64,000 bases of DNA, taken from NCBI RefSeq assembly GCF_030362835.1, contig NZ_JAUCGQ010000002.1, positions 372,001-436,000 of the forward strand, in the 5' to 3' direction. The notes under the pieces are model-generated. The model worked only from the letters and a program-made list of their open reading frames with translations, did not search any database and was not told the origin of the DNA. Positions 57,929-63,761 of this stretch are shown here, in pieces. How positions within the stretch are numbered: position 1 is the first letter of the stretch; every line of letters starts with the position of its first letter. Both the position numbers and the translations under genes were made by a program. Source of the stretch: Cellulomonas alba (GTDB lineage: Bacteria > Actinomycetota > Actinomycetes > Actinomycetales > Cellulomonadaceae).

Positions 57929-57967
57929 ACCCGACGATGGTTCCACAAGGTAGTGACGGGGGTCGTG

Positions 57968-58375
57968 ATGCCTCTCTCGGAGTACGAGCAGCGCGTCCTC
58001 GAGCAGATGGAACGTCAGCTGACGTCTGACGACCCCCGGCTCGCGAACACGCTCACCCAGCGCGGACGGCGGCCCTTCGGCCGCTACGTGATCGCCGGTG
58101 TCGGCGCCGCGCTCGGACTGCTCCTGCTGGTGCTCGGCGCTGCGGGCGGCCGCGCCTGGCTCGGCGTCGTCGGCTTCGTCGTCATGTTCGCCGCGGTGGC
58201 GTTCGCGTTCGCCGACCCGCACCGCGGCCGCCGCTCGGGGCCGCAGGGCGTCGTCCAGGAGGACGGCGCGGTGCGTCAGCCCCGTCCGGCGCGGCCCGCG
58301 AAGCCCGCGAAGCACGGCTTCATGAGCCGGCTCGAGGACCGCTGGGAACGGCGGCGCGGCGAGTCCGGTCGCTGA
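57968..58375 (+). CDS. DUF3040 membrane protein
   Basis: A 135-residue actinobacterial DUF3040 protein. The conserved start is MPLSEYEQRVLEQMERQL, with ATG 57968 chosen over a GTG at 57953 for that reason. It is followed by SDDPRLA, two membrane helices (VIAGVGAALGLLLLVLGAAG and AWLGVVGFVVMFAAVAFAFA) and a basic Pro/Arg tail ending SRLEDRWERRRGES. This family commonly lies near dinB and mraZ in actinobacteria; function unknown. Its last 56 nt overlap the 3-prime end of the convergent transglutaminase gene. Confidence 0.88.
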   Translation: MPLSEYEQRVLEQMERQLTSDDPRLANTLTQRGRRPFGRYVIAGVGAALGLLLLVLGAAGGRAWLGVVGFVVMFAAVAFAFADPHRGRRSGPQGVVQEDGAVRQPRPARPAKPAKHGFMSRLEDRWERRRGESGR

Positions 58376-60674
58376 GCGCCTCGCGCGCCCCGCTCTCGAG
58401 CTCCCCGACCCACCGGTCGAGCGTCGCCGCGTCGACCTCCGGCCGCTGCGGCGCGTACCGCTCGCGTTCGACCGTCCGCGCCAGCGAGGCGAGGGCGGCG
58501 TCCGCGGTGTCGCCGAGCGGCTGCCCCGACAGCTCCTCGACCTGACGCCGCACGCCCGCCGCAGCCACGCGCGGCGTGTCCGAGTCGGCCCACACCACGT
58601 CGAGCGCGGCGAGGCGTCGCCGGGCGCGCGCCCACGCGAGCTCCGGGGTCAGCACGGGTCCGCGACGCACCTGCCGGCGCACCACCAGCACCGCCACGAG
58701 GATCGCGATCAGCAGCACGCCCACGGTCGTGACGACGACCGCGAGCCACGGCGACTTCTCGGCCTGCACCGTGGGCGTCGTCGTCGTCTCGTTCGACGTC
58801 GCCTCGGGTCCGCCGCTCGCCTGGCCGCCGTGGGGGACCTGGTTGTCGGGACGGCTCGTGCCGCCCTGGCCACCGGCGAGCGGGTCGCTCCACACCGGCG
58901 GTGAACCGGTCTGGACCGCGGGCGTCGGCTCGAACCGCACCCAGCCGTGACCCGCGAAGTAGAGCTCGGGCCACGCGTGCGAGTCGTGCCCCGTCACGGC
59001 GTACGTCTTGCCGTCCCCGGTGGACTGGCCGGGCAGGAAGCCGACCGCGAGCCGGGCGGGGATGCCGAGGTCGCGAGCCATGATGACCATCGAGGTCGCG
59101 AACTGGACGCAGTAGCCCTTGCGGCTCTGCAGGAAGTCCCACACGGCGTCGTCCGTGCGGGCGGGCGCGACCTTCGTGTCGTACGTGAAGTTCTGCGTCG
59201 ACCGGAAGTACGTCTGGAGCTCGAGCGCCTGCTCGTACGGCGTCGTCGCGGTCGAGGTGACCTCGTGCGCCTTCGCCGCGATGTCGTCGGCGTGCGAGCT
59301 CGGCGGCACGGCCAGGCTCGCGCCGTCGTCCCCGGGGTCGCCGATCGACGCGCTCTTCAGCTCGGCCGCCGTGAGGCTCGGGATCTCGACGACCATGCCG
59401 TACTTCATCCCGTCGGACGTCGCGCGCGCACCGGTGACGGTGTCGGTCGAGGCCGCGTAGCGCCATGGACCGTCGGCGTCGAGCGCGCGCGGGAACGTCG
59501 AGATCGGCAGGTGCCGGTCGCGCAGCGCGTTGACGGTCAGCGAGACGTCGGCGATCGTGCCGCGCGTCGCGTCGGGCGCCGTGCCGGCGATGTGGGCGTC
59601 GGGGGAGAGGATCGCGCCCGGCGCCGTCCGGGTCGAGGGCGCGGTGTTGTCCGGCGGCGACCACTGCCGGCCGTCGAACGTCGTCAGGGTGAACGCCCGG
59701 AGGGGCCCGACGGCCTGTGCGGAGACGGACGGACCGACGGCGGCGGTGCTCGTGGGCGTCGACGTCGGGGAGGCGGTGGCTCCGCGCGGGATCGGGGTTC
59801 CCGCGGGGCTCGCGTCGTCCTTCTTCGCGGCCTTCGGGTCGGTCACGGTGTACGTGAGCACGCGCTGCTGCGAGCGCTGTCCGAGGCTCTCGCGGAGGTC
59901 GAGGTCGTCCGAGAGGCGCATCGGGCCGACGGGTCCGGAGCCGAGGTCCGGCAGCGCGACCGACGCCCACCCGGGGAACGCCGCGACGGCCGGACCGACG
60001 ACGAGCGTCACGACGACCACGCCGACGGCGGCGCTCGCGGCGACCGACACGCGCCGGGTCCGGTCGGACGCGAGCGCGGCCGACGTGGGCGAGACGCTGA
60101 GGGCGAGCAGCAGCAGGTAGGCGAGCGCGGTCAGAGCGAGCGGCCATCCGCTCGCCGGGAAGCCCAGCACGATGGCCGGGACCCAGAGCGTGGCGTACGC
60201 GAGGCCGGCCAGCGCGGGGACGCCGAGCGCGACGGCCAGCGCGTCCGCGAGCAGGAAGACCGCGACCGCGCCGATGACCACGAGCAGCTCTGCCGGCCGG
60301 ACGGACGGCATCGGCACGAGCGAGGCGTTGATGACGACGGTGCCCTCGTGCGCCGCCGCGACGGTCCGCCGCAGCGAGCCCAGGTCGGGCAGCACCTGGA
60401 TGCGTCCCGGCGGCGCGCCGTACCGGATCAGGAGCCCGCACACGGCCACGACGACCCCGACGAGGCTCGGCATCCACGAGGTGCGGGCGACGGAGCGGAC
60501 GCCCGCGACCACGGCGGCGACGAGGATGACGGACAACCAGCTCGCGGCGAGCCACGGCCCGGGCTGGATCAGGCCCTTCAGCGCGAGGACGCTGGTGCAC
60601 GTGCCGACCGCCACGAGGGCGGTCGCCAGCAGGGCGCGCGGCCCGCGCGGGATGTGCACGGCGACGGCGTTCAT
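58320..60674 (-). CDS. Transglutaminase-like membrane protein (TgpA family)
   Basis: A 784-residue protein: about six N-terminal membrane helices (residues 10-220), a large extracytoplasmic domain with a transglutaminase core, one late membrane helix (WLAVVVTTVGVLLIAILVAV) and a cytoplasmic helical tail. The core has the nucleophile C522 in RKGYCVQFATSMVIMARDLG and H566 in TGHDSHAWPELYF. At the third triad position the sequence reads VRFEPTP, Glu rather than the usual Asp. It is the last gene of the moxR-DUF58-tgpA operon, with a 4-nt overlap with the DUF58 gene. Substrate unknown. Confidence 0.9.
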   Translation of the reverse strand: MNAVAVHIPRGPRALLATALVAVGTCTSVLALKGLIQPGPWLAASWLSVILVAAVVAGVRSVARTSWMPSLVGVVVAVCGLLIRYGAPPGRIQVLPDLGSLRRTVAAAHEGTVVINASLVPMPSVRPAELLVVIGAVAVFLLADALAVALGVPALAGLAYATLWVPAIVLGFPASGWPLALTALAYLLLLALSVSPTSAALASDRTRRVSVAASAAVGVVVVTLVVGPAVAAFPGWASVALPDLGSGPVGPMRLSDDLDLRESLGQRSQQRVLTYTVTDPKAAKKDDASPAGTPIPRGATASPTSTPTSTAAVGPSVSAQAVGPLRAFTLTTFDGRQWSPPDNTAPSTRTAPGAILSPDAHIAGTAPDATRGTIADVSLTVNALRDRHLPISTFPRALDADGPWRYAASTDTVTGARATSDGMKYGMVVEIPSLTAAELKSASIGDPGDDGASLAVPPSSHADDIAAKAHEVTSTATTPYEQALELQTYFRSTQNFTYDTKVAPARTDDAVWDFLQSRKGYCVQFATSMVIMARDLGIPARLAVGFLPGQSTGDGKTYAVTGHDSHAWPELYFAGHGWVRFEPTPAVQTGSPPVWSDPLAGGQGGTSRPDNQVPHGGQASGGPEATSNETTTTPTVQAEKSPWLAVVVTTVGVLLIAILVAVLVVRRQVRRGPVLTPELAWARARRRLAALDVVWADSDTPRVAAAGVRRQVEELSGQPLGDTADAALASLARTVERERYAPQRPEVDAATLDRWVGELESGAREALSDRTRRAAVPSGPRAGS

Positions 60675-61939
60675 CGCGCGCTCCCCAGCAGTCGCAGCCA
60701 GCAGTCCACGATCGGCTCCCCGGGCGTCACGCCGCAGGCCCGCCAGCCGGCGCGGCGCAGCGCGTTGATGGTGTGCTCGGCCTCGCGCTCGTGCGCGGGT
60801 GAGGGTCCGTCGGCGCGGACGACCGCCCACGCCTGGGCGTCGTCGGCGATGTGGGCCAGCGACGCGCGTGCCTGCGCGCCGAGCGGCCCGACCACCGCGA
60901 GGACGATCTCGCCGCCCGCCTGCGTCGTCTCGAGCAGGTGCGCGCCGGCGACGAGCTCCGCCTCGCCCTCCGCTCCGCTGCGCGGACCCTCGAGGTCGAT
61001 GGTGCGGTCGAGGATGGCGGCACGCGCCGTGGGGCCGAGCCGGTTGTGCACGAACGCGAGCGGGTACGGCCCGGCGTCGGGGCTGTCCGGCACGTCGTGC
61101 GCGGGCGCGCCGCCGACGAGCCGCACCGGGTGGCCGCCGTCGAGCATCGCGAGCGCCATCGAGGCCGCGAGCGAGATCGTCCACTCGAGGCTCGACGCGC
61201 GCACGGGAAGGTCGAGCAGCACGGAGACGGGTCGCATGCCGGCGCGCTCGTCGGAGCGGACCATGAGGGTGCCGCGGCGCGCGCTGCTGGTCCAGTGCAC
61301 GCGGCGCAGGTCGTCGCCCTCGCGGTAGTCGCGCAGCTGGGAGTCGTCGGTGGACGGCGTCCGGGCGCCGAGCGCGACCCGGTCGGGCTCGCCGACGAGC
61401 ACGTCGCTCGGCGTCGGCAGCGGCACGACGGCCGGCCAGACGGCGACCTCCGCGCTCGTGCCGAGCGTCGCGGTGGTCCGCGCGACGCCGAACGGGTCGG
61501 AGCGCGTCACGACCAGCGGGCCGAGCGGCCACCGGCCGCGGCGCCCGGGCTGGACCTGGTACGCGACGGTGACGGCGCGCTGGCCGCGCGTGACGCGCGC
61601 GCGCAGCGGCCGGCCGCCCGACAGCTCGGTCGCGGCCTGCTCCGCGAACTTGAGCCCCGCGAGCTGCAGGCGGCCGCTCATGCTCAGCGCGGAGATGGTG
61701 ACCTCGACGTTGGCCTGCTCGCCCGCGTGGACCGGGTTCGGCGCCGACGAGCGCACGACCTCGAGCTGGTCGCGCCGCCGGCTCGTGAGCGCGAGCACGA
61801 CGCCCGCGCCGACCACGAGCACGAGCAGCAGCGTCGCGAACCGCACGAGGTCCACCGCGCCGAGCCCGATGCCGACCTGGAGCAGCACGACGCCCGCGAC
61901 GAGCAGACCCCAGCCGCGCCTGGTCGGACGCAGCCGCAT
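60671..61939 (-). CDS. DUF58 (vWA-like) protein
   Basis: A 422-residue protein with two membrane helices at the N-terminus (WGLLVAGVVLLQVGIGLGAV and LLLVLVVGAGVVLALT). A beta-rich middle domain follows, then the DUF58 signature TDDSQLRDYREGDDLRRVHW with TSSARRGTLMVRSDE, and a von Willebrand A-like region. DUF58 proteins accompany MoxR ATPases and are thought to help assemble or activate envelope complexes. Its stop overlaps the tgpA start (ATGA), and its start overlaps the moxR stop by 1 nt, so the three are tightly coupled. Confidence 0.93.
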   Translation of the reverse strand: MRLRPTRRGWGLLVAGVVLLQVGIGLGAVDLVRFATLLLVLVVGAGVVLALTSRRRDQLEVVRSSAPNPVHAGEQANVEVTISALSMSGRLQLAGLKFAEQAATELSGGRPLRARVTRGQRAVTVAYQVQPGRRGRWPLGPLVVTRSDPFGVARTTATLGTSAEVAVWPAVVPLPTPSDVLVGEPDRVALGARTPSTDDSQLRDYREGDDLRRVHWTSSARRGTLMVRSDERAGMRPVSVLLDLPVRASSLEWTISLAASMALAMLDGGHPVRLVGGAPAHDVPDSPDAGPYPLAFVHNRLGPTARAAILDRTIDLEGPRSGAEGEAELVAGAHLLETTQAGGEIVLAVVGPLGAQARASLAHIADDAQAWAVVRADGPSPAHEREAEHTINALRRAGWRACGVTPGEPIVDCWLRLLGSAR

Positions 61940-62937
61940 CAGCCGATCGCCCGCCGACCGCGCGCTGCGGCGGAGGCGGGCAGCGGGATCCGGTCGACGA
62001 TGTCCGCGACGATCGCGTCGGTCGTGCGCCCCGAGAGGCGCGACTCCGTGCTCGGCAGCAGGCGGTGTGCGAGCACGGGCACGGCGAGGAGCTGCACGTC
62101 GTCGGGCAGCACGTGGTCGCGGCCGTCCATCGCGGCGAGGGACTTCGCGGCGCGCAGCAGCTGGATGGCGGCGCGCGGCGACGCCCCGAGGCGCAGGCCG
62201 TGGTCCGCGCGGCTCGCGCCGACGAGGTCCACGACGTACTGCTTGACGGCGGGCGCGGCGTACAGCCGGCGCGTGGTGTCGATCAGGTGCGCGACGTGCG
62301 CGGCGTCGGTCACGGGGGAGAGCCGGTCGAGCGGGTCGGCGGACTCCTGGATCTCGAGCATCTCGAGCTCCGCCTCGACGCTCGGGTAGCCGACGGTCAG
62401 GCGCGCCATGAACCGGTCGCGCTGCGCCTCGGGCAGCGGGTACGTGCCCTCCATCTCCACCGGGTTCTGCGTCGCGACGACGAGGAAGGGCCGCGGCAGC
62501 GGGTAGCTGTGGCCGTCGACCGTCGCCTGCGCCTCCTGCATGCACTCGAGCAGCGCCGACTGCGTCTTCGGCGAGGCGCGGTTGATCTCGTCGCCGATCA
62601 CGACGTGCGCGAACACCGGGCCCGGCCGGAACTCGAACTCGTGCGTCTGGCTGCGGAAGATGTTGACCCCGGTGAGGTCGCTGGGCAGCAGGTCCGGCGT
62701 GAACTGGATGCGGCCGACCGTGCAGTCGATCGACCTGGCGAGCGCCTTGGCGAGGGTGGTCTTGCCGACGCCCGGCACGTCCTCGAGCAGCAGGTGCCCC
62801 TCGGCGAGCAGGACGGCGAGCGTCACGCGCACCAGCTCGGGCCTGCCCGTGACGACGCTCTCGATGCCGGCCCGCATCCGGCCCGCGGTCTGGACGACGT
62901 CGTCGAGCTCGTTCGACGACGGTACTGCCTGCAGCAT
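61939..62937 (-). CDS. moxR: MoxR-family AAA+ ATPase
   Basis: A 332-residue AAA+ chaperone. Walker A is LLEDVPGVGKTTLAKALAR, Walker B VVIGDEINRASPKTQSALLE, sensor 1 VVATQNPVEMEGTYPLPEAQ, arginine finger region QRDRFMARL, and sensor 2 GASPRAAIQLLRAAK. The ATG at 62937 has a perfect AAAGGAGG ribosome binding site; longer in-frame starts lack family similarity. TAGGCT (62969-62964) is its probable -10. GTGGAG direct repeats in its promoter region suggest that MraZ may control this operon. Confidence 0.95.
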   Translation of the reverse strand: MLQAVPSSNELDDVVQTAGRMRAGIESVVTGRPELVRVTLAVLLAEGHLLLEDVPGVGKTTLAKALARSIDCTVGRIQFTPDLLPSDLTGVNIFRSQTHEFEFRPGPVFAHVVIGDEINRASPKTQSALLECMQEAQATVDGHSYPLPRPFLVVATQNPVEMEGTYPLPEAQRDRFMARLTVGYPSVEAELEMLEIQESADPLDRLSPVTDAAHVAHLIDTTRRLYAAPAVKQYVVDLVGASRADHGLRLGASPRAAIQLLRAAKSLAAMDGRDHVLPDDVQLLAVPVLAHRLLPSTESRLSGRTTDAIVADIVDRIPLPASAAARGRRAIG

Positions 62938-63003
62938 GACGCCTCCTTTGGCGATCTGGTCCGAGCCTACGGGGCGCCCGGGGGTGCCACATGGATACCG
63001 GCT

Positions 63004-63019
63004 CTCCACTTCGCTCCAC
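63004..63019 (-). promoter_or_regulatory. GTGGAG pair upstream of moxR (array 1)
   Basis: On the minus strand GTGGAG occurs at 63019-63014 and 63009-63004, exactly 10 bp apart, 67-82 nt before the moxR ATG and just upstream of its probable -35. The 19-bp block 63004-63022 recurs at 63130-63148 with one mismatch. A lone GTGGAG is at 63053-63048. Confidence 0.6.
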
Positions 63020-63129
63020 CGGATCAACGCGCCGGGCCTCCCGCGCACTCCACGAGGCGGACACGTGTCCGGTTCGAACCGTACCGAGGTCACGACACGC
63101 GGTGACAGCCCCGGGTCTCGCACGGCTCC

Positions 63130-63145
63130 CTCCACTCCGCTCCAC
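63130..63145 (-). promoter_or_regulatory. GTGGAG pair upstream of moxR (array 2)
   Basis: GTGGAG occurs on the minus strand at 63145-63140 and 63135-63130, again 10 bp apart, pointing toward moxR. It is a near-identical copy of array 1, 126 bp away. Confidence 0.55.
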
Positions 63146-63193
63146 CGGTGCTGACGTGCATCGACGCTCGCTCAGACGGGTGAAAGACGGCTC

Positions 63194-63242
63194 TTGACCG
63201 GTGCTGGTGGAGGGAAGTGGAGTACCGTGGAGGCACGTGGTG
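63194..63242 (+). promoter_or_regulatory. mraZ promoter with MraZ-type repeat array
   Basis: GTGG starts at 63207, 63217, 63227 and 63237: four direct repeats phased at exactly 10 bp (GTGGAG three times, GTGGTG once). MraZ proteins are known to autorepress by binding short G-rich direct repeats with this periodicity. TTGACC (63194-63199) is a candidate -35; the -10 is unclear, with TACCGT (63223-63228) as an option. Confidence 0.8.
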
Positions 63243-63284
63243 AGGCGGGGAGGCCGAGCCCGGGTGAAGAGCGGGGAGGCGGGC

Positions 63285-63761
63285 ATGGCACTCGAGCCGT
63301 CCTCGGGCCTGCTCGGTTCGCTCGCGCCGTTCCTGGGCACCTACACGCCGCGTCTCGACGAGAAGGGCCGGCTGATCCTCCCCGCGAAGTTCCGTGCGCA
63401 GCTCGCGCCCGGCCTCGTCATGACGCGCGGCCAGGAGCGCTGCCTCTTCCTGCTGCCGTTGGACGAGTTCCGCGTCATGCACGACCAGCTCCGTCAGGCG
63501 CCCGTCACGAGCAAGCAGGCGCGCGACTACCTGCGCGTCTTCCTGTCGGGGGCGAGCGACGAGCTGCCGGACAAGCAGGGCCGCGTCTCGATCCCGCCGA
63601 TGCTGCGCAAGTACGCCGGCCTCGACCGCGACGTCGCCGTGATCGGCGCCGGCACGCGCGTCGAGATCTGGGACCTCGCGGCCTGGGAGACCTACCTCGC
63701 CGAGCAGGAGGCGGGCTACGCCGACACCGCGGAGGAGGTCTTCCCGAACGGACCGTTCTGA
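63285..63761 (+). CDS. mraZ: Transcriptional regulator MraZ
   Basis: A 158-residue MraZ, first gene of the division and cell wall (dcw) cluster. Two SpoVT/AbrB-like repeats are seen: [22 protein letters not shown] with [15 protein letters not shown], and [21 protein letters not shown] with [19 protein letters not shown]. The usual start would be at FLGTY. Here the ATG with GGGGAGG ribosome binding site adds about 15 residues ([12 protein letters not shown]...). No better start is visible between. It should repress its own operon through the repeats at 63207-63242. Confidence 0.96.

Follow-up and report, generated by a model that had tools for sequence, protein, structure and literature searches.

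Conserved, helically phased GTGGAG pairs upstream of mraZ in Cellulomonas alba and its relatives: probable auxiliary MraZ operators that face moxR

MraZ boxes and distant operators in described systems

MraZ is an AbrB-like ring protein that ranks among the most conserved bacterial regulators, and the reason for its multi-subunit ring is unclear. For LacI, GalR and AraC, one oligomeric repressor acts at a main operator and at distant operators in a manner that depends on helical phase, and sites whose spacing varies but keeps to the helical phase are the usual comparative sign that binding is cooperative via looping or wrapping. The locus described here resembles these systems in combining a putative main operator with distant putative operators in helical phase, whereas it differs from them in having a regulator of the AbrB-like ring type, sites made up of short direct-repeat arrays, and a loop that is putative.

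In the available text of PMC8475190, the MraZ of E. coli and that of M. genitalium are described as repressors of their own cluster. The mraZ operator of B. cenocepacia consists, according to the available portion of PMC7761207, of four repeats of 7 nt each that are separated by 3-nt spacers and carry a GTG motif, and these repeats lie downstream of the − 10 element and over the start site. The MraZ boxes of E. coli, mycoplasmas and Burkholderia cenocepacia are, as far as the accessible parts of these sources go (PMC8475190, PMC7761207), direct repeats at the mraZ promoter, like the primary array found here (array F); inverted, distant and phased auxiliary pairs, unlike here, are not mentioned in those parts. 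No report of MraZ looping or of distant inverted auxiliary MraZ operators was found in the open-access literature among the matches listed. The MraZ entries of the PDB among those listed are 1n0e, 1n0f, 1n0g, 9qlg, 9r4j, 9sx6, 9sz7 and 9qlr, and no paper was found for the last five. MraZ boxes at mraZ as such are known.

The mraZ–moxR intergenic region and its repeats

The window, i.e., the whole stretch of 64,000 nucleotides that was analysed, contains a divergent mraZ–moxR arrangement close to its right end (Table 1), with a gap of 347 bp between the two start codons. The encoded MraZ carries a duplicated PF02381 domain, and the next gene is mraW/rsmH (PF01795), which extends past the end of the window, as is found at the head of a dcw cluster. 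A generic sigma-70 consensus scan of positions 62900–63330 found no promoter, and the − 35 and − 10 assignments in Table 1 therefore depend on conservation and position. The moxR − 10 hexamer proposed by the first-pass annotation is indeed present on the minus strand, and most relatives among those listed have a TA[GC]GCT-like hexamer some 30 nt ahead of moxR; its status as a promoter element, however, gained no backing from the scan. The putative mraZ − 10 falls inside array F, so that initiation should be blocked when MraZ occupies F; this agrees with the description of MraZ as a repressor in the available text of PMC8475190 and with the operator position given in that of PMC7761207.

Table 1. 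Genes, putative promoter elements and repeat elements around the mraZ–moxR divergent region (window coordinates)
Feature	Position	Strand	Remarks
DUF3040 gene	57953-58375	+	far side of the moxR operon in the window
moxR, AAA ATPase (AAA_3)	61939-62937	-	first gene of the moxR-DUF58-transglutaminase operon
Putative moxR -10, TAGGCT	62964-62969	-	from sequence and recurrence in relatives
Pair B, putative inverted distal auxiliary MraZ operator	63004-63019	-	repeat scan; conserved
Weak extra pair	63038-63053	-	contains the single GTGGAG at 63048-63053; looser scan; 34 bp from B
Pair A, putative inverted auxiliary MraZ operator	63130-63145	-	77 bp from the start of F
Box TGACCTGC (in the window TGACGTGC)	63152-63159	+	conserved in loci of the order
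Box GGGTGAA	63178-63184	+	conserved in loci of the order
Putative mraZ promoter	63194-63223	+	TTGACC 63194-63199, 18 nt, TGGAGT 63218-63223; from sequence and conservation
Array F, putative primary MraZ operator	63207-63242	+	four GTGG[A/T]G boxes, 10-bp period
mraZ	63285-63761	+	PF02381, two stretches, E=6.4e-35; putative start codon

The tandem GTG-core boxes at the mraZ promoter start at 63207, 63217 and 63227 (GTGGAG) and at 63237 (GTGGTG). Pairs A and B, on the opposite strand, both read GTGGAG-N4-GTGGAG, and the block common to them (CTCCACTTCGCTCCACCGG / CTCCACTCCGCTCCACCGG) is identical at 18 of 19 positions. In the window, B lies 126 bp (12 × 10.5) from A and 203 bp from F. The coordinates and strands that had been reported for the plus array and for both minus pairs were all reproduced, as was the 18/19-bp shared block. 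The copy of GTGGAG that had been described as single is present as well and, in a looser scan, forms half of a weak pair. This weak pair scores 10.2 of 12.7 and is by itself near chance, given that block-shuffled sequence contains 1.17 such pairs per kb at threshold 9.3; its step to B fits a spacing of 33–34 bp, one of the two commonest between successive minus-strand pairs.

The pattern GTGGWG-N4-GTGGWG has five matches in the window, compared with 0.03 expected from shuffles. The whole genome holds eight matches, five of which are at this locus, and the backward pattern gives six, showing that the genome total is unremarkable and that it is the clustering at the locus which is remarkable. 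With the stricter motif GTGGRGNRAAGTGGRG and at most one mismatch, the 3.8-Mb genome yields three matches, one each in F, A and B, and its backward control yields one. Chance or low complexity as the origin of the pairs is rejected on the basis of the shuffles, the genome-wide counts and the backward controls.

Conservation and helical phase of the inverted pairs

A family set was assembled from 80 named relatives (Cellulomonas, Sanguibacter, Oerskovia, Actinotalea, Cellulosimicrobium, Isoptericola and a few unclassified), 29 further loci (30 minus L089, the window's own locus) and the window, giving 110 loci and, after dereplication, 84, of which the 80 with a divergent moxR provided the intergenic regions counted. 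Using the expression GTGG[AGT]G-N4-GTGG[AGT]G, a minus-strand pair was found in 76 of the 80 family regions, against a mean of 0.04 and a maximum of 1 per 80 in dinucleotide shuffles, thus confirming the conservation in relatives on which the first-pass annotation had made its proposal depend. A is present in 72 of the 80 regions, B in 58 and both in 55; the A and B of the window are ordinary members of this family pattern, in which extra sites of the same motif are conserved away from the promoter. A plus-strand pair of the array F type occurs in 79/80 regions and, together with the four-box array at the promoter, fits the mraZ autoregulation that had been expected from the boxes.

An order-wide set of 178 loci was reduced by dereplication to 173, comprising 141 with a divergent moxR and 32 without. 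At threshold 11, A is missing in 40 of the 173 loci, and B is likewise missing in 40. Plus-strand pairs occur in the A zone of none of the 173 loci and in the B zone of one, which leaves hardly any exception to the inverted orientation. Of 63 class-level loci sampled outside the order, 18 have A or B, and in five of these A lies at 76–78 bp (five same-order loci were left out of this count, and L257, with 61 bases, had been dropped at an earlier step), suggesting that the architecture belongs chiefly to this order and is sporadic outside it. Two further arrangements were seen upstream of mraZ. In six class-level loci (L221, L226, L229, L231, L236 and L237), the inverted A is lacking and another plus-strand pair lies 52 bp upstream of F; DUF3040 was found upstream in all of these except L231. 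Five other loci (L152, L182, L187, L143 and L197) carry several minus-strand pairs in trains, mostly in steps of 22–25 bp.

The exact motif GTGGRGNRAAGTGGRG has 92 matches in 65 of 81 family genomes, compared with five for the backward control, and is absent in the other 16. Seventy-one of the 92 matches are placeable, i.e., lie in genomes with an mraZ position listed (the remaining 21 are in other genomes), and 70 of these 71 fall in the 600 bp that precede mraZ, with 45 on the same strand and 25 on the opposite one. The one exception among the placeable matches (G026:C240:3276-3291) is an exact pair about 150 bp past the end of the mraZ match. All nine sampled genomes of family f34, which may be Streptomyces (G352, G370, G384, G397, G409, G418, G427, G436 and G445), are without an MraZ match, and eight of the nine are without a GTGGRGNRAAGTGGRG match; the remaining one has two overlapping matches. 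Since the strict two-box motif is found almost only at mraZ, the direct MraZ regulon in these actinobacteria may be narrow, as far as this motif is a guide to it. The same distribution bears on the identity of the protein that would occupy A and B. A protein other than MraZ could be considered, as MraZ is assigned to these pairs by inference and each pair has two boxes instead of the four of the primary array. However, the box, the N4 spacing and the linker bias are the same as in F, and the motif is almost confined to the neighbourhood of mraZ and is absent in eight of nine MraZ-less genomes, which makes such a binder very unlikely.

The distances between the sites are variable and follow the helical repeat. 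From the start of F, A lies at 75–79 bp in 108 of 133 loci, at 85–90 bp in 6, at 97–101 bp in 14 and at 108–111 bp in 5; the alternatives are thus about 1–3 helical turns beyond the main class, and the phase is imperfect, as values of 85, 89–90, 101 and 110–111 occur. The distance from A to B is 48–172 bp among cluster representatives and reaches 196 bp with the best-scoring B. With A–B spacers clustered by similarity and one value taken per cluster (106 loci, 78 clusters), the distances are phased at 10.5 bp with R=0.68 (Rayleigh p ~2e-16). The best period is 10.75 (R=0.71), and 5000 jitter nulls, for which the period scan was coarser than for the observed distances, never rose above 0.44. 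The phasing is R=0.69 with the far B instead of the B nearest A, R=0.80 (n=17) in the moxR-less loci alone, and, when each distance value is counted once, R=0.48 (37 values; Rayleigh p ~2e-4 by our own arithmetic). Of 37 spacings between successive minus-strand pairs, 27 measure 22–23 or 33–34 bp, the loci not being independent. An artefact of threshold or of the choice of B is rejected, as the A–B phasing is stable across thresholds of 10–12.4 and across three choices of B; shared ancestry as its source is reduced by taking one value per spacer cluster, related loci not being fully independent. The helical phasing of the operator spacing is a comparative result, with exceptions in four Cellulomonas-like loci (L055, L057, L058 and L059), where the A–B distances are 150, 151, 162 and 162 bp, second pairs lie at 184–196 bp, and the register is broken.

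Two more boxes are conserved between A and F. The box TGACCTGC occurs with at most one mismatch in 141 of the 173 loci (one mononucleotide shuffle per region gave 7), including 15 of the 32 moxR-less loci. Its distance to F is 54–57 bp in 125 loci, 65–67 bp in 15 and 76 bp in one, with position ties settled towards 55, and its gap to A is 5–6, 15–18 or 26–27 bp; the box moves in steps of about 10.5 bp with both A and F. GGGTGAA is found exactly in 78 of the 173 loci, in 75 of them 28–30 bp from F and in the other three about one turn off the usual place. By scan and alignment inspection, TGACCTGC does not fit a sigma-70 element, either as a − 35 or as a − 10, and neither was a fitting minus-strand promoter seen beside A. 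In Dietzia, MtrA binds the mraZ promoter, as stated in the available part of PMC9602371; it represents another input to an actinobacterial mraZ promoter that could explain one extra box, and by this analogy MtrA may be taken as a lead only for the binder of TGACCTGC or GGGTGAA.

Helical phasing over variable distances is a sign of looping or wrapping, and A and B are therefore read as auxiliary operators. With the sites on one face of the helix, the intervening DNA would be looped or wrapped in one complex. The gap of 61 bp between A and F in the window is short for a free loop, such that wrapping or a bending protein would be needed. Alternatively, MraZ could bind A, B and F cooperatively along one face of the DNA, the bound units being contiguous or stacked with no true loop, perhaps together with RNA polymerase or putative factors at TGACCTGC and GGGTGAA, and such an assembly might even activate. 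The movement of TGACCTGC in ~10.5-bp steps with A and F would suit this arrangement; A–B distances of up to 196 bp, however, are long for direct contact, and the overlap of the array with the putative − 10 suggests repression instead of activation. We regard this stacked alternative as unlikely.

Relation of the pairs to mraZ and moxR

The first-pass annotation had predicted from the orientation of the pairs that MraZ, through A and B, directly controls the divergent moxR-DUF58-transglutaminase operon. Three observations bear on this prediction. First, where moxR is divergent (141 loci), A is present in 112 loci and B in 111; where moxR is absent at mraZ (32 loci), A is still present in 21 and B in 22, with at most 0.7 expected from shuffles. 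The pairs are somewhat rarer without moxR, which speaks mildly for the prediction, but the difference is not significant (Fisher p 0.11 for A and 0.25 for B), and no dependence of the pairs on the presence of moxR is seen. Sanguibacter loci L063, L066, L068 and L074 are examples in which the pairs are kept without moxR. DUF3040 is the recognised upstream gene in 29 of the 32 moxR-less loci, reading towards mraZ; some relatives have the moxR-DUF58-transglutaminase operon (within 57953–62937 in the window) between DUF3040 and mraZ, and others do not. Since the pairs are kept in the moxR-less loci, it appears that the moxR operon comes and goes, whereas the pairs stay with mraZ.

Second, the pairs were not found at the moxR-type genes checked elsewhere in the genome. 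The 13 genomes without a moxR match beside mraZ have 53 such genes listed, and none of the 30 checked (29 with sufficient upstream sequence) has a pair within 700 bp upstream. These genes are candidates for a moved orthologue, with orthology unproven and 56–65 percent identity for the closest; L287 and L296 are two places in one genome (G267) with the same identity. Third, among 76 loci with a measured distance, B is 28–168 bp upstream of the moxR − 10, and in 24 of them the distance is 46–51 bp (76 of the 111 loci with B; the 35 without a − 10 hexamer found were excluded). This location upstream of a conserved hexamer, and the fact that the pairs face moxR where both are present, are what favour direct control of moxR. 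However, the position of B relative to the − 10 is neither fixed nor phased (R=0.17, n=76, using the B nearest moxR), and this distance serves as an internal control for the phasing between A and B.

No conserved promoter-like motif adjoining A or B on the minus strand was found, which likewise argues against direct control of moxR. It also bears on another possible target, i.e., a conserved upstream or antisense transcript that runs away from mraZ and is controlled by A and B. The minus orientation of the pairs and their retention without moxR would accord with such a transcript, but as no conserved minus-strand promoter element was found to keep register with either pair, we consider it highly improbable. 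Control of moxR as the main role of the pairs is unsupported by the loci without moxR, by the moxR-type genes elsewhere and by the phasing to the − 10; the claim that the minus-strand pairs exist to control moxR is likewise not supported, and a model of direct moxR control through A and B is improbable. As the pairs persist without moxR, are not found at the moxR-type genes checked elsewhere, and have B phased with A and not with the − 10, the simplest account of their orientation towards moxR is that auxiliary mraZ operators are inverted here. B may have a secondary effect on moxR, given that it precedes the − 10 in loci that have both, and control of moxR would be a by-product at most.

We therefore favour the reading that A and B are probably auxiliary MraZ operators of mraZ and the dcw cluster, acting in a phased looped or wrapped complex, and not moxR operators. 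From the comparative data we infer that MraZ is the bound protein, that its binding is cooperative, that the DNA is looped or wrapped, and that the effect is repressive. An MraZ ring with many DNA-binding faces would occupy the four boxes of F and, further upstream, at least one inverted two-box pair, as a ring with more such faces than F uses could also hold A and B. The DNA between the sites would be looped or wrapped into one complex, and this complex would repress the mraZ promoter or fine-tune its repression. More tentatively, and with somewhat less than even confidence, we suggest that one or more MraZ rings might serve as an architectural repressor that holds F and the inverted pairs on one face and folds ~75–300 bp as a gate of the dcw cluster, with the proteins of TGACCTGC and GGGTGAA built in and operons of this region, moxR-DUF58-transglutaminase among them, under the same gate.

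The locus corrects a natural misreading, in that repeats may face a divergent gene without regulating it. If the favoured reading is true, the conserved, inverted and phased auxiliary operators would give the MraZ ring a concrete job.
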